From Methanosaeta sp. PtaB.Bin039 (lineage in GTDB: Archaea > Halobacteriota > Methanosarcinia > Methanotrichales > Methanotrichaceae): DNA of 64,000 bases. The stretch lies in assembly GCA_002067795.1 (NCBI GenBank), contig MVQI01000082.1, positions 124,001-188,000 on the forward strand, written 5' to 3'. The notes beneath the pieces are model-generated. The model saw only the letters and a list, made by a program, of their open reading frames with translations. It was not told where the DNA came from and searched no databases. Of the stretch, positions 36,756 through 45,564 are shown piece by piece. The position numbers and the translations under genes are program-made. Each line of letters starts with the position of its first letter. The stretch's first letter is position 1.

Positions 36756-37325
36756 ATGACCATAAAGGACACCACGGCCAATCCTGCCCCGCTGGGGCTT
36801 ATGGGTTTTGGAATGACCACGGTTCTATTGAACCTGCATAACGCAGGCTACTTCGAGCTGAGCACCATGATCCTGGCCATGGGCATATTCTATGGGGGAA
36901 TTGCCCAGATAATCGCCGGAATCATGGAGTGGAAGAAAGCCAACACCTTCGGGACCACGGCTTTTACCTCTTACGGCCTGTTCTGGCTGACCCTGGTGGG
37001 TCTGATCCTGATGCCCGGAGTTGGACTTGGGGAGAAGGCGTCCCTTCCGGCCATGACCGCTTACCTCTTCATGTGGGGACTCTTTACCGCCCTGATGTTC
37101 TTCGGGACGCTGAAGGCCAACCGGGCTCTGCAGTTTGTCTTCCTCTCGCTGGCCATACTATTCTTCCTGCTAGCGGCCCGGGATGCCACCGGAAGCGCTT
37201 TTATTGGCACCCTTGCCGGATACGAGGGGATAATCTGCGGCCTTTCGGCCATCTACACAGCCATGGCCCAGGTGCTCAACGAGGCCCACGGTCGCGTAGT
37301 CCTGCCGCTGGGGCCTGTCAAATAG
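36756..37325 (+). CDS. satP: Acetate uptake transporter, SatP/YaaH (GPR1/FUN34) family
   Basis: A 189-residue membrane protein with six predicted helices. The family signature [21 protein letters not shown] lies at residues 10-30. Members carry acetate or succinate with protons; this suits an acetoclastic methanogen. The ATG at 36756 lacks a good Shine-Dalgarno site. GGAGGG at 36710-36715 lies further up, beside an in-frame ATT at 36717, so the real N-terminus may be up to 13 residues longer by a non-standard start, or the site may serve a mini-ORF. A TATA-like TTTATATC near 36653 is a candidate promoter. Confidence 0.93.
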
Positions 37326-37489: not shown

Positions 37490-39523
37490 ATGTCGTCCCA
37501 GCCCAACCGCCTGATCAGGGAGAACAGCCCCTACCTGCGCCAGCATGCCTTCAATCCGGTCGACTGGTACCCCTGGTCGGATGAGGCTTTCGCCAGGGCA
37601 CGGGAATTGGATCGACCGATCTTTCTGTCCATAGGATATTCCACATGCCACTGGTGCCACGTGATGGCCAAGGAGTCCTTCATGGACCAAGAGGTGGCCA
37701 ATCTGCTCAACCGGGCCTTCATAAGCGTAAAGGTTGACCGGGAAGAGAGGCCTGACCTGGACCGCATATACATGGAGGTCTGCCAGCGGATGACTGGCCG
37801 GGGCGGGTGGCCTCTCACCGTAATAATGACACCAAAACGGCGTCCGTTCTTCGCTGCCACCTACATCCCCCGTCAGAGCCGCTACGGCATCCAGGGGCTA
37901 TTGGAGCTGCTGCCAGCGGTTGAATCCCTCTGGAGGACCAGGCGATCCGATCTGTTGAACACGGCAGATCAGATCCTCTCAGCTCTATCCTCGCGGCAAC
38001 GCCAGGAATCCAAAGAGATGGGCATGGAAGTGCTGGAGAGGGCCTACTTGGACCTTGCAGCCAGATTCGACTGGCAGAGCGGGGGCTTTGGCGGATCTCC
38101 TAAGTTTCCCTCGGCCCACAACCTGCTATTTCTGCTGCGATGGTGGGACAGGTCGTCTCAGCCTGATGCGCTCGAGATGGTGACGATCACGCTGCAGGCC
38201 ATGCGGGAAGGTGGCATCTTCGACCAGGTTGGCGGGGGCTTTCATCGCTACAGCACCGATGCCGGATGGAACGTGCCGCATTTCGAGAAGATGCTCTACG
38301 ATCAGGCCCTGCTTTCCATCGCATACCTGGAGGCTGCTGCAGCCACCGGCCAGCCTGAATATGCCTCGGTTGCCGCGGAGATATTCCGCTTTGTGAGAAG
38401 GGAGCTTCGCTCGGCACAGGGTCCGTTCTTCTCAGCGCTTGATGCGGACAGCGAGGGAGAGGAGGGTCGCTATTACCTGTGGACCTCCCAGCAGATCCGG
38501 TCGGCTTTAGGGGATGATGCACCTTTATTTTACAGGGTATTCTCCTTGGAGTCCGATCTTGGCGACGGCACTGGCCGTGCAGTCCTCCGCATGAGAGGCA
38601 CCTGGGACGACCTTGCCTCTTCACTTGGCTGGGATGAGGGACGACTCAGAGAGCGGGTTGATAACTGGCGGCAGATCCTCTGGAAAGTTCGGGAAAGCCG
38701 TGTCAGGCCAGCCAGGGACGAGAAGATCCTGACCGATGGAAATGGGCTGATGATCGCAGCCCTGGCCCGTGGATCCATGATTCTTGAAGGAGCAGATGCG
38801 GAGCTGGCCCTGGCCGATGCCCTCAGCGCCGCAGATTATCTCCTTTCCCTCTCCACACTGGTGCACAGCACCGGAAGTGGTGGCATCGCTTTCCTGGACG
38901 ATTATGCCTTCCTTATCTGGGGACTTATCGAGCTATACTGGGCCAGCTTTGATGATCGATACCTGAGGTCTGCCGAAGGGCTGGCCCAAAAGATGTTGGC
39001 CAGCCTAAAAGATCCTGATGGCGGCCTGTTCTTCTCGCCTGACCAGCCCGACCTCCTGGTGCGCCAAAAGGAGTTTCACGATGGGGCAATACCATCGGGA
39101 AATGCGGTAGCGGCTTACGATCTCCTCTGTCTTGCTCACATCTTGGGCCGCCCGGACCTGGATGAGCGGGCACAGTCCATATTCAGAGATGCTTCCGGGC
39201 AGGTCTCAAAGTCTCCGGCCGCCTTTGTCGGGCTTCTGTCAGCCCTGGACTTCGCGCTCGGGCCGGCTCAGCAGGTCGCGATAACCGGCCTGCCAGATGA
39301 GCCGGGATTTCAGGCTATTCGCCAGGCTCTCTTTCGGGCCTTCCTGCCGAGAAAAGCGGTGGTCGGAGCCGGATCTGAGCTTGCGGATTGGACAGTGGGC
39401 CTAAAGATGCTGGATGGAAGGGCGACAGCCTACGTATGCGCCGGCAACACCTGCTCCCTTCCGACCACCGATCCGGTCCATATGATGAGGCTTCTTGGGA
39501 TACCGAGAGATTCCTCTCCTTGA
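37490..39523 (+). CDS. YyaL family protein with thioredoxin-like and six-hairpin domains (DUF255)
   Basis: 677 residues, the usual length for this widespread family (human relative SPATA20). The N-terminal thioredoxin-like domain shows [24 protein letters not shown] and the C53-H-W-C56 motif in [11 protein letters not shown]. The rest resembles an (alpha/alpha)6 barrel of glycosidase type with [19 protein letters not shown] and [26 protein letters not shown]. No signal peptide, so cytosolic. The molecular role is unknown; a sugar-binding or protein-folding function has been suggested for the family. Confidence 0.93.
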
Positions 39524-39551: not shown

Positions 39552-39560
39552 ATCTAAATA
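39552..39560 (+). promoter_or_regulatory. Predicted TATA box for the small-ORF/RLAN/ATP-grasp operon
   Basis: TCTAAATAC, giving a start near 39583 and a leader of about 35 bases before the small ORF at 39619. Confidence 0.45.
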
Positions 39561-39618
39561 CATCCACCAGGGTAGTTCACTGTTTGACGATTCGTAAATC
39601 TCTTTCGAGGATAACCTT

Positions 39619-39756
39619 ATGGGAGATCGGAACGAATTTCGCAAACGCCGTGACAAACACCGTAGCAAGCACCGTAGCGGAGTGACTAAGTCACCGATAT
39701 TGGCCTCAAGCAACTGCCCTCTCTTCTGTGTTACGGGGTCAGCGGTGATGAAATAA
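39619..39756 (+). CDS. Putative 45-residue basic small protein before the RLAN/ATP-grasp genes
   Basis: A short open frame that begins ATG at 39619 with GAGG (39607-39610) 8 bases upstream, and ends TAA at 39754-39756, so that the next gene's ATG follows at once. The N-terminal half is very basic (RNEFRKRRDKHRSKHRSG); the C-terminal half has two Cys (SSNCPLFCVTGS). The Shine-Dalgarno site GGTGAT of the RLAN gene lies inside its last codons. The position makes it a candidate leader, regulator, or substrate peptide of the ligase genes that follow. Its third codon positions are less GC-biased than in its neighbours, so a non-coding leader is possible. Confidence 0.4.
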   Translation: MGDRNEFRKRRDKHRSKHRSGVTKSPILASSNCPLFCVTGSAVMK

Positions 39757-40407
39757 ATGAATAAACGAAAGAAGGATCATATTCCCAAGCGGGACATCAT
39801 GTATGCGGTCAACAAGAACGATTCCGTATACATTATCAATGAGGATTATTTCTACAAGACCGAGCCCTACTACACGATAGTCCAAAACGAGTTTCAGGGG
39901 ATCAGGACTGTGCCGAGCAGCGGCGACGTCTTAGATGCCTACATAGTGCCCATCTGCCTGGAGAAGGCCAAGATGGCTGGTATATCGGTCTGCGAGTGGG
40001 TGATATCCTACTCTTACGTAACCCTTCCGGCAATCGTCTATGGGCTGAACTACTTCTCCACTCCTTCAGACCACTTCGTGGTCAACGACTACCCCAGCGC
40101 AAAGAAGGTCATCCGTCATGTGACCAACTTCGGAAAGTACCCCTTCTGCTATCAGAAGATGTCCAGCGGCTCTGAGATTGAGACATACGTCTCGATCTTC
40201 GGCAAGACGGTCAATAGCAGCCCTGAGGTAGCCTCCATGTCAGAGAAGATATATTCGGTCTTTCAGATACCCCTGGTCACGATAGTTCTTGTGAGAGACG
40301 GTGGGGGATATTATCTGTCCTCACTGGCTCCCGTTAGATACTCCCAGCTGACCCGGGAAGAGACCGAGCTCTTACAGAGCTTTCTGGAGACGAGGGTGAA
40401 TCATTGA
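39757..40407 (+). CDS. RLAN-domain protein (RimK-like ATP-grasp N-terminal domain), stand-alone
   Basis: 216 residues resembling the RLAN domain that in many bacteria is fused to the N-terminus of a RimK-like ATP-grasp ligase. Supporting segments are VYIINEDYFYKTEPYYTIVQNEF, YIVPICLEKAKMAGISVCEW and SAKKVIRHVTNFGKYPFCYQKM. Here the domain is a separate gene, directly upstream of and overlapping the ATP-grasp gene (ATTGA). The domain function is not established; it probably binds the substrate or positions the ligase. GGTGAT sits 7 bases before the ATG. Confidence 0.68.
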   Translation: MNKRKKDHIPKRDIMYAVNKNDSVYIINEDYFYKTEPYYTIVQNEFQGIRTVPSSGDVLDAYIVPICLEKAKMAGISVCEWVISYSYVTLPAIVYGLNYFSTPSDHFVVNDYPSAKKVIRHVTNFGKYPFCYQKMSSGSEIETYVSIFGKTVNSSPEVASMSEKIYSVFQIPLVTIVLVRDGGGYYLSSLAPVRYSQLTREETELLQSFLETRVNH

Positions 40408-41429
40408 GCAAGCTTGGAATATTCGTGAATAGACAGACATTGAGCAGCTCTGAGCAGCTATCGGCCCTGATCAAATGCCGGGACGTAGCTGAAAGCATGG
40501 GCCACACCGCAGAGTTCATCTTTCCAGTTGACATCAAGAAGATCCCCAAGCTGGATGCCCTGTTCATCAGGGCCAACACCGATCCCATGAATGCCACCTA
40601 TGTGGCAGCCCGCATGGCCAGCCTATATGGTGTCCCTGTGATCGACGACCCGCTCTCGATTCAGATATGTTCCGACAAGGTCAATATGTACATGCATCTG
40701 ATGAAGCGGGAGCTGCCCATGCCCAGGACGGTATTTCCCAGTAAGGAGAAGATATCCGCCGATTACGCCAGGGAGCTCTTTGAGGAGATGGGCTCGCCCC
40801 TCGTGCTCAAGGAACCCTCTACCTCGTTCTCGGCCCGTGTGGAGAAAGCCTCCACCGTCCCTGAGTTCATGAGGATAGCCAAGAGGTTCTTGCGCCTATC
40901 AGATTGGGTGGTCGTACAGCAGTACATACCCAGCCGCTTCGACTGGCGTATCGGCGTCCTCAATGGGGAGTTCCTCTACGCCTGTCGATACGTCATACCC
41001 TCCCAGACCTTCAAGATCCAGGCCTCCGTCAATGGCCATCTCGTCTATTGCGGTGTTGAGAGCGTGCCTCCGGAGGAAGTCCCATCCGAGATCATCGACC
41101 TCGGGATCGAGGCTGGTCGGGCCATCGGCAGTGGGCTTTACGGAGTTGATATAAAGGAGAGAGATGGCAGGCTGTACGTGATAGAGGTCAATGACAACCC
41201 GTCATTGGACGGCGGCGAGGATGTGCATTATCCTGACGTCTACCACCGCATAATCTCCTTCCTGATAAGCGGCGATTCCCACATGGACACTCGCAGCTAT
41301 ATACCCTCCCGCATCTACAGCCCATTCCAGTCGAGCCGGTATAACGCATCCACCGACCTGGTGCCAGAGGGCGCACGAATGCTGGTGGGCGAGGAGATAA
41401 GCTCCTGCTGGATAGACTTCGAGAGATGA
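40404..41429 (+). CDS. RimK-like ATP-grasp ligase
   Basis: A 341-residue ATP-grasp enzyme that would form an amide or peptide bond through an acyl phosphate. TTG start at 40404, overlapping the RLAN stop by four bases. The ATP-binding lysine lies in SPLVLKEPSTSFSARVEKAS, the second lysine-rich part and WVVVQQYIPSRFDWRIGVLNGEF follow, and Mg2+ ligands are in YGVDIKERDG and YVIEVNDNPSLDGG. Relatives add glutamate or other amino acids to protein C-termini, small molecules or peptides; the target here is unknown. The C-terminal 60 residues (SRIYSPFQSSRY...) extend beyond the usual fold. Confidence 0.88.
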   Translation: MSKLGIFVNRQTLSSSEQLSALIKCRDVAESMGHTAEFIFPVDIKKIPKLDALFIRANTDPMNATYVAARMASLYGVPVIDDPLSIQICSDKVNMYMHLMKRELPMPRTVFPSKEKISADYARELFEEMGSPLVLKEPSTSFSARVEKASTVPEFMRIAKRFLRLSDWVVVQQYIPSRFDWRIGVLNGEFLYACRYVIPSQTFKIQASVNGHLVYCGVESVPPEEVPSEIIDLGIEAGRAIGSGLYGVDIKERDGRLYVIEVNDNPSLDGGEDVHYPDVYHRIISFLISGDSHMDTRSYIPSRIYSPFQSSRYNASTDLVPEGARMLVGEEISSCWIDFER

Positions 41430-41513
41430 TCAGCCGACCTGGCATACGTTTGCGGCCCGTTACCCCTATAATGGGTGGCAGGACCAGCGTAAAGGCCATC
41501 TCTCACCCCATCC

Positions 41514-41522
41514 TTTTATAAA
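41514..41522 (+). promoter_or_regulatory. TATA box for the YkgJ/GCS2 gene pair
   Basis: TTTTATAAA, about 45 bases before the TTG start at 41563, giving a start near 41543. It implies that this pair can be transcribed apart from the ATP-grasp operon. Confidence 0.55.
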
Positions 41523-41562
41523 CGGACTAAAGGAAGCACTTTTCGATAAGAGATGATGTCTC

Positions 41563-42057
41563 TTGAGCGATATCGATCTGAGTTCAATCTGTGCCCGCTG
41601 CACACTGGGCGGCGGGTGTTGTAGCCATGCCCATCCACCACTGACGCCCCGGAGAATGGCCATGCTCCGCGAGGCAGGGGTGCCGGACGATGCTATTGAG
41701 ATGGCCGGCTACCATCGGCTGGCGGTCAAAGACGACGGTTTTTGCATACTGTTCCGGGAGGGCGGCTGCACCGTCCACCCGGTCAAGCCCGAGACCTGCG
41801 TAGCCGGGCCTTTCACCTTCGACATTCATGATGATCTGCTGGAGATATACCTGAAAAAGGAGAGCATATGCCCGATGGTCCCTCATCTCGTGAAGGATGC
41901 ACCTGCTTATAAGGAGCAGTTCGACCGGGCTGTAGAGATGATCATGGCACTTGTTCGGGAGCTGCCGGCAGAGGAGCTGGCAGTGGTGCTTCAGGTGGAG
42001 GAGCCGGATACGATAAAGGTGGCAGAGATCTCGCTCTTTAAGGACGGTGAGGTATGA
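41563..42057 (+). CDS. YkgJ-type cysteine-rich protein (zinc/iron-chelating domain)
   Basis: 164 residues. It carries the cysteine pattern of the CxxCxxxxCC domain family: CARCTLGGGCC at residues 10-20, DGFCILFREGGCTVHPVKPETC, and SICPM. Members are thought to bind Zn or an Fe-S cluster and often accompany peptide-modifying enzymes; no activity is established. TTG start at 41563; the two upstream ATGs (41552 and 41555) are in other frames. The stop overlaps the ATG of the GCS2-like gene (ATGA), so the two are translated together. Confidence 0.8.
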   Translation: MSDIDLSSICARCTLGGGCCSHAHPPLTPRRMAMLREAGVPDDAIEMAGYHRLAVKDDGFCILFREGGCTVHPVKPETCVAGPFTFDIHDDLLEIYLKKESICPMVPHLVKDAPAYKEQFDRAVEMIMALVRELPAEELAVVLQVEEPDTIKVAEISLFKDGEV

Positions 42058-43157
42058 TCGGGACCGAACACGAGTATTCCATCAACGACGATAACTTCTG
42101 TCCTCTTCCCATATCAGATAGGCTGATCGAGCGAGTGGCAGGCAACGTCTCGGATGAGATACCCTTTGGCGGGGTGAGGCTATCCAAGGAGCTGCAAAAA
42201 CACGTATTGGAGCTTGTGCCGCCGCCCCAGACAAGCCTGAGCGAGCTTGAGCTGCTGCTGCAGGCAGGGGTGGACCGCATGCACAGATGCTTTGGTGACA
42301 TGCATTTCCTGGGTCTGGGAATGCACCCGCTTCTGACGCTCGACCAGACCACATGGTGGGATCATGACGAGGGGGAGTACTACGATGCCTATAACCGCCT
42401 CTTCAACCTGCGCCAGCACGGCTGGCTGAACATCCAGGCACTGCAGATAAACTTCCCGTACGGCGACAACTCAGGCCTTGTGCAGATGTTTAATCGGGTG
42501 AGGTCTCTGATTCCATATCTGGTGGCGGTATCCGCCTCCTCCCCATTCGTCGAGGGCCGGGCTACTGGGTATGCGGACAACCGTCTGATCTATTACCGGG
42601 ATAACCAGAAGGAGATCCCTCAGATCTGCAACGATATCCTGCCTGAGCGGCTATCCAGCCACCGGGATTGGGTGCGGATAAACCGGAGTATATACCGGGA
42701 GCTGAAGGCAAAGAAGGCAGACGTCCTTTGCAGGGAGTGGGTGAACTCCCGGGGGGCCATAGTGCGCTTCACCAGAGGCTGCATAGAGGTCAAGGCCCTG
42801 GATGAACAGGAGTGCATAAGGTCGGATATGGCCATGACCGCCTTTTTATTGGCGCTTCTGAAAAGCCCGCTTCCGCTGGAGGATGATGAGGCTGCTCTGC
42901 GTGCACTGCTAAAGACCGCCATATCATCTGGCACCGACCGCCTCCAGCCGGAGCTGCAGAGGCTATGCGATGAGGCTGAGAGGCGGGCAAGCCCAGATCA
43001 GATGGCGTATCTTCCTGTCGTGCGTCAGCGCATAGAGGGGGGAAGCCTCTCCCAGATCCTTGTTGAGCGCTACCGTGATTCAGGAGATATGCGAGTCGTA
43101 CTTGCTGAAGCGGATCGGGCGCTGCGCCAGAATATCCCTATGCTCAACCGTTCTTGA
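42054..43157 (+). CDS. Glutamate-cysteine ligase-like protein, GCS2 family
   Basis: 367 residues of the carboxylate-amine ligase family related to glutamate--cysteine ligase. It starts MIGTEHEYSI, with the acidic metal-binding GxExE-like motif, and has LGMHPLLTLDQT and LQINFPYGDNSGLVQMFNRVRSLIPYLVAVSASSPF, the middle segment of this family. Such enzymes use ATP to join glutamate to an amine. Methanogens usually lack glutathione, so another substrate is likely. It follows the YkgJ-like gene by overlap and the RLAN/ATP-grasp pair by 600 bases; together they suggest two ligases acting in one pathway. The 3' end overlaps the convergent gene by 14 bases. Confidence 0.8.
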   Translation: MIGTEHEYSINDDNFCPLPISDRLIERVAGNVSDEIPFGGVRLSKELQKHVLELVPPPQTSLSELELLLQAGVDRMHRCFGDMHFLGLGMHPLLTLDQTTWWDHDEGEYYDAYNRLFNLRQHGWLNIQALQINFPYGDNSGLVQMFNRVRSLIPYLVAVSASSPFVEGRATGYADNRLIYYRDNQKEIPQICNDILPERLSSHRDWVRINRSIYRELKAKKADVLCREWVNSRGAIVRFTRGCIEVKALDEQECIRSDMAMTAFLLALLKSPLPLEDDEAALRALLKTAISSGTDRLQPELQRLCDEAERRASPDQMAYLPVVRQRIEGGSLSQILVERYRDSGDMRVVLAEADRALRQNIPMLNRS

Positions 43158-43620
43158 GGGCGATGATCTCAACAACCCTGACAAGTCTCCAAATCAGGAT
43201 ATCATCTGCTTCGAACAGGGCTTCAGGTGGCTGGTCCGGCCGCAGGCCCAGGGCCACCATGATGGCTGGGGAGATCTCCTTGTGTCGGATGAGGTCCACG
43301 AAGCTCTGGCGGACAGCCCTGGCCTGATCCGCATCCTCTACAAGGGCCAGACTGCCTCTAAGTGTAACGAAGCAGAATGAGGAGAGGTCTGGGGAGTAGC
43401 GCTCCACCTCCACCGAGACCCTTGGGTCCTGGCCGAAGTAGCGGATCTTGCGGCCGTATCGGGTGGAGATAAAGTACATGTGCCTTTTGTCGAATGTGTA
43501 GAGGAACGGTGCGATGTGGGGGTGGCTCTCCCCCCGAAAGGCGATGCGGCATATGTGCTCCTCCTCAATCAGCCGGTCGTATTCGGCCTTCTCCATGCGT
43601 GGAAGCTTGAGCGATCCCAT
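43144..43620 (-). CDS. Pyridoxamine 5'-phosphate oxidase-like FMN-binding protein
   Basis: A 158-residue split-barrel flavoprotein. EEHICRIAFRGESHPHIAPFLYTFDKRHMYF, GRKIRYFGQDPRVSVEVE and SFCFVTLRGSLALVED match the family in which FMN, F420 or heme is bound. I chose ATG 43620 because a TATA box (TATAAA, 43652-43647) sits about 27 bases before it, giving a leaderless mRNA; ATG 43638 would lie within the promoter. The substrate is unknown. It converges on the GCS2-like gene with a 14-base overlap. Confidence 0.85.
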   Translation of the reverse strand: MGSLKLPRMEKAEYDRLIEEEHICRIAFRGESHPHIAPFLYTFDKRHMYFISTRYGRKIRYFGQDPRVSVEVERYSPDLSSFCFVTLRGSLALVEDADQARAVRQSFVDLIRHKEISPAIMVALGLRPDQPPEALFEADDILIWRLVRVVEIIALKNG

Positions 43621-43771
43621 GTGGTGTATCTGCTGCATTTATTGCGTTTATAGATACCCGGGATCTGGCGATCTGACCCGGTTCATGGGATAATGGATCA
43701 TTTTTGGTTGCCGCCTTCACTTTCGCCCCGCTGGGGCATGAGCTATCTAGCTGAGCCGCGATCGCATATCG

Positions 43772-45004
43772 ATGGTCGCCTTAGAGAAGCTGATCCGCCT
43801 GTCACAGGGCTGCTACGACAAGGCCGGGCCTGACATAGGCCAAAGACCGCCGGACGAGGAAGATCCATGGCCGGATGAAGGCAAGGTGCGTGCCCTTGGT
43901 CTGGGCACCAGGCATGATGTCTGCGCCTCCTCTGCGAGTCCCAGGGGATCGGACGATATATCTGCGGCTGCATCTGTAGCTCGTTCTGGGATATGTCATG
44001 CCTTCACACACAGCGGACGATGCGTCAGCCTGTTCAAGACGCTATATACCAACCGCTGCTTCCACCAGTGCGGTTACTGTTCCAATGCATCGGGCTGCAG
44101 AGAGCGCGACCTGTCCTATACCCCGCAGGAGCTGGCCAGGGCGACCATGGCCCTCTACCAGGGGAACTACGTTGAGGGATTGTTCCTGAGCTCAGGGCTT
44201 GGACGGGACCAGGATCATGTTATGGAGGAGATGCTGGAGGCAGTCAGGCTCTTGCGAAATGTGTACAGCTTCAAGGGCTATATTCATTTCAAGATCCTGC
44301 CTGGGGCTGCGCGTCACCTGATCGAGGAGGCCATGAGCTACTCCGACCGGGTGAGCATCAATGTTGAGGCTGCGTCCGCCAGCCTGCTGGATGAGATCAG
44401 CCCAAGCAAGGACTACGAACGGGATATACTGCAGAGGCAGCGTTACATCCGGGATCTGCAGGACAAAGTCCCGCTTCCTGCCGGTCAGACTACCCAGTAC
44501 GTGGTCGGGGGCGCAGGAGAGGCCGACCTGGAGATATTCCAATCCCTCGTCCGGGAGTACCGGGAGATGGGGATTCGGAGAGCCTACTTCAGCTCGTTCT
44601 CCCCTCTGCCCAACACACATCTCGCCGACCTGCCGAGCCAGCCTGGATGGAGGGAAGCCCGGCTCTATCAGGTGGACTGGCTTTATCGTGTATACCGCTT
44701 CTCCGTAAAGGAGATCGAGGCGGCATTTGACCAGAATGGTTTTTTGCGGGACCAAGATCCCAAGGTGGCGGTGGCCAGGTCAGCGCTTGATGGTCCAGTG
44801 GATCCGAATCAGGCTTCATATGCGGAGTTGATCAGAGTTCCTGGGATTGGTCCCAGGGGAGCAAAGCGGATACTGTCACTTCGCAAAAGCTGCACGATCA
44901 AGAGCGCTGCGCAGCTGGCATCGCTGGGGGTGAGAAGGGCTGCGCTATCCTATCTGAAGCTGAACGGATGGGCTCCGACAACGCTCGACCGGTGGTGCCG
45001 ATGA
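43772..45004 (+). CDS. Radical SAM protein with helix-hairpin-helix, DNA modification/repair type
   Basis: 410 residues. The radical-SAM cluster is C96xxxC100xxC103 in RCFHQCGYC. FLSSGLGRDQDHVMEEMLEAVRLLR and VSINVEAASASLL follow in the TIM-barrel. The C-terminus has a helix-hairpin-helix motif, LIRVPGIGPRGAKRIL, as in DNA-binding proteins. This architecture matches the family annotated as a putative DNA modification/repair radical SAM protein, which is nearly always next to a uracil-glycosylase-linked or DUF4130 protein, as here. Residues about 15-45 seem to be an extra insertion. The substrate is unknown. Confidence 0.88.
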   Translation: MVALEKLIRLSQGCYDKAGPDIGQRPPDEEDPWPDEGKVRALGLGTRHDVCASSASPRGSDDISAAASVARSGICHAFTHSGRCVSLFKTLYTNRCFHQCGYCSNASGCRERDLSYTPQELARATMALYQGNYVEGLFLSSGLGRDQDHVMEEMLEAVRLLRNVYSFKGYIHFKILPGAARHLIEEAMSYSDRVSINVEAASASLLDEISPSKDYERDILQRQRYIRDLQDKVPLPAGQTTQYVVGGAGEADLEIFQSLVREYREMGIRRAYFSSFSPLPNTHLADLPSQPGWREARLYQVDWLYRVYRFSVKEIEAAFDQNGFLRDQDPKVAVARSALDGPVDPNQASYAELIRVPGIGPRGAKRILSLRKSCTIKSAAQLASLGVRRAALSYLKLNGWAPTTLDRWCR

Positions 45005-45564
45005 TACCGGAGGATTTTCTGGTTGTTCTGCAGGCTCACCGAGACTGCTCAAAGCGGCTGCTTGAGGCAGCTGCAAAGCGGACGCCTCGTGAGGTGGAAC
45101 TAGGCCAAAGTCGGCTTGACCAAACCGTCAGGACCATGGTGAGAGAGGTGCTGGGCGAGGCGCACCGCATGAAAGGGATGGTCAGGCTCTCTTCAGCTGG
45201 GGAGGCGACATTATGCGGATATCTTAGGCCCCGGCATGATATCGGCTTTATGGTTGCCGGGCACCTTGCCAGGCGCTTCTCCGGCACTGTGATAGTGCTC
45301 GGCAATGCCGCGGAGAGCTGGGCCTGCCTATGTCTGGCCGGCAGGCTTTACTTCAGCAGTGGAGGGCCGCTATTCGAGATGCCGGATGTCCAGAGATCTG
45401 ATCTGAAGGACAAGGCGGCTGCCCTCTGGGATGCGTATTACCAGAGCCGGGACACCGGTGGCAGCACACTCGAGGCATTTTCAAGACGTATGCCTGCAAC
45501 AGCCAGGCGCGCTGCCATGTCCAGAGAAAGACGTACCGGCTCATCTCTTGAGGATTTCATATGA
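45001..45564 (+). CDS. DUF4130-type partner of the radical SAM protein
   Basis: A 187-residue protein beginning MIPEDFLVVLQAHRDC; the ATG at 45001 overlaps the radical-SAM stop (ATGA). The central segment EAHRMKGMVRLSSAGEATLCGYLRPRHDIGFMVAGHLARRF fits the DUF4130 pattern of proteins paired with the repair-type radical SAM enzymes. The uracil-DNA-glycosylase-like extension found in many partners is not present. Sequence similarity is moderate, so this assignment rests partly on context. The function is unknown. Confidence 0.65.
   Translation: MIPEDFLVVLQAHRDCSKRLLEAAAKRTPREVELGQSRLDQTVRTMVREVLGEAHRMKGMVRLSSAGEATLCGYLRPRHDIGFMVAGHLARRFSGTVIVLGNAAESWACLCLAGRLYFSSGGPLFEMPDVQRSDLKDKAAALWDAYYQSRDTGGSTLEAFSRRMPATARRAAMSRERRTGSSLEDFI

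Follow-up and report, generated by a model that had tools for sequence, protein, structure and literature searches.

A linked archaeal gene unit with two predicted carboxylate-amine ligases of different fold, an RLAN protein, a YkgJ-like protein and a small upstream reading frame

What could a methanogen make with two ATP-dependent carboxylate-amine ligases of different fold that are encoded in one tight run of genes? The question is raised by a locus in Methanosaeta sp. PtaB.Bin039 (contig MVQI01000082.1 of assembly GCA_002067795.1, positions 124,001 to 188,000). This whole stretch of 64,000 nucleotides (nt) is referred to as the window; coordinates are window positions, and the genes and signals of the unit itself lie on the + strand. 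An earlier note, made from the letters of the window alone, described a small open reading frame (ORF) followed by genes for an RLAN protein, a RimK-type ATP-grasp ligase, a YkgJ-like protein and a GCS2-type ligase. It proposed that the two ligases modify a common substrate, perhaps the small peptide or a small molecule. The description of two such ligases was upheld, and these and their partners are a conserved, co-inherited linked unit, beyond chance.

Inspection of the sequence confirmed the five frames at the coordinates and with the overlaps that the note had given. The small ORF encodes 45 residues (MGDRNEFRKRRDKHRSKHRSGV...AVMK; 39619..39756), and its TAA stop abuts the ATG of the RLAN gene (216 residues; 39757..40407) in the same frame. 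The RLAN gene overlaps by 4 base pairs (bp; TTGA) the gene of the RimK-type ATP-grasp ligase (341 residues, TTG start; 40404..41429). The gene of the YkgJ-like CxxCxxCC protein (164 residues; 41563..42057) follows after 133 bp, and it overlaps by 4 bp (ATGA) the gene of the GCS2-type carboxylate-amine ligase (367 residues; 42054..43157). The searches with RLAN, RimK ATP-grasp and GCS2 models that the note had suggested all returned scores above the Pfam cut-offs. RLAN matched PF14401 (E 6e-8, 32.9 bits against a gathering cut-off of 25), with two homologues, L191 and L143, scoring 49 and 82 bits; the ATP-grasp ligase matched ATP-grasp_3/RimK (PF08443/PF02655; E 2e-8, above the gathering cut-off); and GCS2 matched PF04107 (E 2e-42, 146 bits against 21). 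The YkgJ-like protein matched CxxCxxCC PF03692 (E 7e-8, 33.5 bits against 23).

Close homologues of GCS2, ATP-grasp and RLAN were found in nine of the eleven Methanotrichales genera, and the other two (g7 and g11) were without all three. Within the order, the three proteins are present or absent together, except in two incomplete or split genomes (G018 and G019) where only part was seen. The note had asked for a comparison of neighbourhoods across the Methanotrichales, and the homologues proved to be clustered, not scattered: the order RLAN, ATP-grasp, YkgJ, GCS2 was kept in 19 of the 20 loci inspected, the exception (L038) being a contig that ends inside the ATP-grasp gene. In a contig scan, ATP-grasp homologues that are 64-70% identical over some 290 residues also turned up in the Methanoregulaceae, Methanoregula and Methanolinea among them. 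There RLAN precedes ATP-grasp, and YkgJ and GCS2 usually come after. The GCS2 clade was also surveyed in 340-345 genomes sampled from the phylum at a threshold of E < 1e-20. In this sample it was limited to the Methanotrichales, the Methanoregulaceae (f14), family f23 and family f7, which we take to be the Archaeoglobaceae, and it was nearly confined to genomes that also carry RLAN and ATP-grasp. The 18 sampled Methanoregulaceae genomes with RLAN are the same 18 that have the GCS2 clade. Additionally, the pairwise evolutionary distances of the four proteins correlate across 52 loci (r 0.82-0.95), as expected from shared inheritance, although host relatedness alone contributes to these values.

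The Archaeoglobaceae often have two linked pairs, RLAN-ATP-grasp and GCS2-YkgJ. These lie near each other on opposite strands in L190, L191 and L196 and form a single run in L147, L150, L195 and L197. In some members of the family (L192, L193, L194 and L198) GCS2 stands apart from YkgJ and from RLAN-ATP-grasp, and in two of the genomes with an isolated GCS2 (G138 and G216), RLAN-ATP-grasp and YkgJ lie in convergent orientation at another site (L148 and L149). In all four Archaeoglobaceae loci that were fully read (L190, L191, L192 and L194), a gene for a CitMHS-like carboxylate transporter lies immediately 5' of GCS2 or overlaps it; Pfam was run on the L191 copy (L191 7541-9840). The presence of this transporter 5' of GCS2 would favour a small carboxylate as substrate or product.

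The structure of the RLAN protein was predicted with AlphaFold2 on a read-through chain (39619-40404, with the TAA taken as Gln). The RLAN part was modelled with confidence, most blocks having a predicted local distance difference test score (pLDDT) above 90. In a Foldseek comparison with the PDB the first matches of this model were LysX/ArgX and RimK (E 1e-9 to 1e-8, best about 2e-9), with a template modelling (TM) score of about 0.5 that is normalised on a query about one fifth disordered. There were 448 matches at E <= 0.001, and all 50 of those listed are ATP-grasp-type enzymes. In a profile comparison with hhalign, the RLAN segment 'PAIVYGLNYFS' aligns on the ATP-grasp segment 'PLVLKEPSTSFS' in the expected register, though weakly. 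In our reading of the alignment, 'LVTIVLVRDGGGYYLSSLAPV' of RLAN is the counterpart of 'LYGVDIKERDGRLYVIEVNDN' of the ATP-grasp ligase, and the Lys, Asp and Glu-x-Asn are gone. RLAN is thus probably a degenerate ATP-grasp fold without catalytic residues. The neighbouring ligase has them: Lys136, Asp249, Glu261 and Asn263 are invariant or nearly so in the alignments, the C-terminal portion of about 50 residues being variable. These ATP- and metal-binding residues together with the Pfam match place it among the RimK-type enzymes, and its PDB matches are LysX, ArgX and RimK. With one protein lacking the catalytic residues and the other retaining them, RLAN and ATP-grasp look like a pseudoenzyme/enzyme (dead/live) pair. 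The ligase scored below the NCBIfam model TIGR00768 (RimK family alpha-L-glutamate ligase; 75 bits against a subfamily cut-off of 143.4), and we therefore do not predict which amino acid it adds.

The note had considered a separate RLAN gene unusual. This did not hold, as split RLAN and ATP-grasp are the rule in all the archaea and Zixibacteria inspected, the fusion being seen in Proteobacteria (Legionella, Azospirillum and Pseudomonas). None of the papers covered by our literature search names the RLAN domain or PF14401. Iyer and colleagues, writing in Mol. BioSyst. in 2009, are said to have predicted such amide-ligase neighbourhoods in bacteria. We regard the present system as a new archaeal variant of the predicted kind. 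The RLAN-ATP-grasp pair occurs without an adjacent GCS2 in four loci that we take to be from Methanocella (L143-L146) and in family f4 (L142, with a convergent GNAT gene). In the Zixibacteria, where ATP-grasp was found in 27 of 80 genomes of the phylum, a split RLAN, ATP-grasp and a GNAT acetyltransferase are present in L133 and in all nine further loci read (L200-L207 and L209); Pfam was run on L133 and on L142 of f4. At 54% identity to the methanogen enzyme, the ATP-grasp of L133 suggests transfer between domains. These units share the split RLAN and RimK-type ATP-grasp with the methanogen unit but differ in that GNAT takes the position of GCS2 and replaces both it and YkgJ. The same replacement is seen in Azospirillum, where the RLAN-RimK fusion occurs with a GNAT-peptidase C39 protein. 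The statement of the note that GCS2-type enzymes occur with RLAN and ATP-grasp in bacteria was borne out in Legionella. In a plasmid record of Legionella adelaidensis (L137), RLAN and RimK-type ATP-grasp adjoin GCS2, and the genes overlap. Unlike in the methanogens, RLAN and ATP-grasp are fused, an N-formylglutamate amidohydrolase (FGase) is present instead of YkgJ, and the ATP-grasp and GCS2 are only about 35% identical to the methanogen proteins. The Pseudomonas fusion has no GCS2-, GNAT- or hydrolase-type neighbours. The recurrence of GCS2 or GNAT beside the RLAN/RimK core suggests that this core has another amide- or acyl-forming enzyme as its partner, sometimes together with a hydrolase.

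The fold of the second ligase is close to that of enzymes that make gamma-glutamyl-cysteine, which raises the question of whether the locus makes a glutathione-like thiol, with GCS2 in the part of GshA, joining glutamate to cysteine, and ATP-grasp in that of GshB, adding a third residue. The GCS2 model (pLDDT 93) is nearest to YbdK-type structures (1tt4/1r8g, TM 0.73-0.80), then to a plant glutamate-cysteine ligase (2gwc) and, further down, to other glutamate-cysteine ligases and the Pup ligase/deamidase (PafA/Dop). The protein retains the conserved residues of the YbdK/glutamate-cysteine ligase fold in sequence and model, and it belongs firmly to GCS2, as the note had held, and not to another family. 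The two ligases are the same pair of folds as GshA/GshB, and a cysteine-rich YkgJ and, in Methanotrichales, a nearby gene for a thioredoxin-like DUF255 protein would suit a thiol. The similarity to the YbdK/GCS2 glutamate-cysteine ligases (GshA of plants, cyanobacteria and haloarchaea) extends to the fold and most conserved positions; the methanogen GCS2, however, forms a separate clade and falls below every NCBIfam equivalog cut-off for these enzymes, the best being the YbdK subfamily at 55 bits against 176 and the others far lower. Since both ligases gave only sub-threshold NCBIfam matches, no equivalog name is justified for either. Family f22, presumably haloarchaeal GshA, gives weak matches only (E about 1e-6), and a single GCS2 gene was found in the source genome. 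In the GCS2 family the motif E-x-R usually carries an Arg; here Lys247 ('EVKALDEQE') stands in its place and is kept throughout the clade, a hint at a different substrate. The ATP-grasp ligase matches RimK/LysX models and not GshB, the Zixibacteria have GNAT where GCS2 would be needed, and DUF255 is unlinked outside the Methanotrichales. On balance we regard a glutathione-like thiol as unlikely. For the YkgJ protein, the motif, the profile and the invariant residues of the alignment (Cys10, 13, 19, 20, 61, 69, 79 and 103, and His72) agree with membership of the CxxCxxCC family.

The remaining member of the locus is the small ORF. It was initially viewed as a chance frame because a tblastn search with the 45-residue peptide found no match in relatives, a view that was overturned by comparison of the leaders and by substitution tests. 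The DNA preceding RLAN is conserved across the Methanotrichales. In 55 of 65 distinct loci the DNA before RLAN contains an ORF of 28 codons or more that ends at or near a RLAN start codon; most of these carry a family motif (an acidic run, then HR), and the few that do not may be chance frames. Homologous small ORFs precede RLAN in both Methanotrichales and Methanoregulaceae, and in most of them the stop codon is directly next to the RLAN start codon or overlaps it. In Methanothrix g8 the ratio of nonsynonymous to synonymous polymorphism (pN/pS) is 0.37 in the coding frame, which has no stops, against 1.24 and 1.07 in the other frames, with 114 and 18 stops. The corresponding values are 0.28 against 1.70 and 1.11 in Methanolinea and 0.74 against 0.69 and 0.97 in Methanoregula, a set too small and diverged to tell. 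By these substitution patterns, the small ORF belongs to a coding family that is under purifying selection in relatives, and the tiny frame noticed in the earlier note is real.

A candidate ribosome-binding site, GAGGAT (39607..39612), lies 6 nt before the ATG of the small ORF, and the spacing is shared with relatives: Methanothrix g9 loci have GAGGAT and ATG, and g8 loci have GAGGAG and ATT, each 6 nt apart. The g8 small ORFs share no ATG, GTG or TTG, and the ATT is invariant in all 27 distinct sequences (leaders of L040-L112) and aligns with the ATG of the Methanolinea frame (MSEPE...). From the invariance, the spacing and the alignment we infer that the g8 small ORF starts at ATT. This is a rare initiation codon, and its use in g8 could itself be regulatory. 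Within the small ORF, the direct repeat CACCGTAG (39658-39665 and 39670-39677, within 39658..39677) encodes His-Arg-Ser and was compared at the DNA level across the Methanotrichales, where it is conserved. For the two Arg codons at the HR/RR positions, 25 and 27 of the 27 g8 sequences use CGT, although CGT makes up 3.6% of core-gene Arg codons. This excess points to a constraint at the nucleotide level, with the qualification that the sequences are related. The coding signal led us to reject a purely non-coding role as the sole explanation of the repeats, which we keep as an additional constraint. No Rfam family matched the leader or the repeats.

These features bear on what the small ORF is for. 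It may be a regulatory leader whose translation controls RLAN expression through a hairpin over the RLAN ribosome-binding site. A candidate for this site, GGTGAT (39744..39749), falls within the last codons of the small ORF and corresponds to a conserved GCGGTGATG in relatives; in the g8 leaders it is predicted to be paired in a local hairpin (mean 0.89 against 0.70 in shuffles). The coupling of stop and start in most loci, the apparent ATT start and the CGT constraint fit such a role. The hairpin effect is modest, however, and fails in L087 and L089, no Rfam family supports it, and conservation of the N-terminal peptide in two orders suggests that the peptide itself matters, so we hold this reading only tentatively. 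A role in trans as an N-terminal segment of RLAN, separated from it by fission of the gene within a variable linker, is quite possible, if short of probable. The small ORF occurs where RLAN is without the acidic N-terminus (MIIVSEDEDD...) of Methanocella and f4, and the profile of the Methanoregula small ORFs aligns with that N-terminus, the two starts in register, at a score of 15.4, compared with 7.6 (standard deviation 2.2) for column-shuffled profiles, none of 60 being as high. Acidic sequences match readily, though, and neither the profile from Methanothrix, for which 16 of 60 shuffles scored as high, nor the Archaeoglobaceae comparisons exceed the shuffles. In the read-through model the small-ORF part is disordered and RLAN folds without it, and on this ground we rejected the idea that the small ORF supplies a missing strand of RLAN.

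The note had named the 45-residue peptide as a possible substrate. In that case ATP-grasp and GCS2 would add amino acids or cross-links to it, as in tagging or in the maturation of ribosomally synthesized and post-translationally modified peptides. The ORF is coding, conserved in two orders and usually coupled to the ligase genes, its conserved N-terminal part and variable rest resemble a leader and core, and GCS2 is similar in fold to the Pup ligase PafA as well. The nearest known arrangement is LysX/ArgX with LysW, in which an archaeal RimK-type ATP-grasp also stands beside a small protein, and LysX/ArgX are the nearest solved relatives of ATP-grasp and, by fold, of RLAN. LysW ends in a fixed Glu and contains a zinc finger. 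The small ORF has neither: its C-termini differ among genera (AVMK, WWPLV, AVMI, LILS), with no common Glu end and unlike LysW, Pup or S6, and no lysine or arginine genes were seen adjoining the methanogen unit. The middle and C-terminus are variable, and no Thr/Ser/Lys plus Asp/Glu core, nor the repeated Thr/Ser-Glu/Asp pattern of graspetides, was visible in the small-ORF set. Moreover, no coupled ORF was noticed 5' of RLAN in the Archaeoglobaceae loci read, though both ligases are kept there, the unit includes no protease or exporter, and the CGT constraint points to selection on the mRNA. The claim for the peptide as substrate did not survive these comparisons well, and we give it little probability. 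That the peptide is an acceptor amidated or glutamylated by the dead/live pair and the Pup-ligase-fold GCS2, in a new archaeal modification or tagging system, is about as doubtful. Because the tail is variable, a coupling leader or a separated N-terminus of RLAN (or both, the two being compatible) is favoured over a ligase substrate.

The explanation that we favour for the locus as a whole, and consider fairly probable, is a two-step amide-bond pathway. RLAN and ATP-grasp would form a dead/live heteromer, the counterpart of the proteobacterial fusion, that in the manner of LysX and RimK activates a carboxylate as an acyl phosphate and couples it to an amine. GCS2, in the place that GNAT has in the Zixibacteria version, would then make another amide bond on this molecule, and YkgJ would bind a metal or Fe-S centre and support GCS2 or the substrate. 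A substrate shared by the two ligases, as the note proposed, is part of what we infer. As product, a small metabolite of the capped-peptide or amide kind is likelier than a modified protein. The main substrate would not be the small ORF, which would instead be a detached N-terminal piece of RLAN and/or a leader, translation of which would open the RLAN ribosome-binding site. Several points weigh against this pathway. At sequence level RLAN is linked to ATP-grasp only weakly (an E of 0.04 and a probability of 1% in hhalign), the fold comparison alone being strong, and the heteromer is a prediction. Several Methanoregula-type loci (L114, L115, L117, L136 and L161) have no YkgJ beside the ligases, so YkgJ is not always needed. 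RimK relatives also modify proteins, making a protein substrate possible.

The locus may be transcribed as two units, one up to ATP-grasp and one with YkgJ and GCS2, since the 133-bp gap contains the TATA-like TTTTATAAAC (41514..41523). This is a possible separate promoter of YkgJ-GCS2; in several Archaeoglobaceae each of the two pairs of genes forms a unit of its own. A TATA-like box, CTAAATAC (39554..39561), is the candidate promoter of the small ORF and RLAN by its consensus, and CTAAATAC or ATAAATAC is found 5' of the small ORF in relatives. The DUF255 gene (thioredoxin-like, YyaL type; 37490-39523) is directly upstream of the unit. It is upstream of RLAN in most Methanotrichales loci, several of which have an acetate transporter gene before it (36756-37325 here), but it was not found beside RLAN elsewhere and was rejected as a member of the unit. 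At 43144-45564, a Radical SAM gene (TIGR03916-like, linked to DNA repair glycosylases) overlaps a DUF4130/TIGR03915-like gene. A divergent PPOX-type gene precedes this pair, and the trio is also near the unit in L042 and L050.

If the proposed pathway is correct, a compound with an amide linkage, so far undescribed, would be made by several methanogens that are widespread (Methanothrix, Methanoregula and Methanolinea) and by relatives of Archaeoglobus. The RLAN family would gain a structural meaning as the inactive partner of an ATP-grasp enzyme in archaea and bacteria. The unit is small enough to be expressed whole and cultured hosts exist, so that the product can be sought directly.

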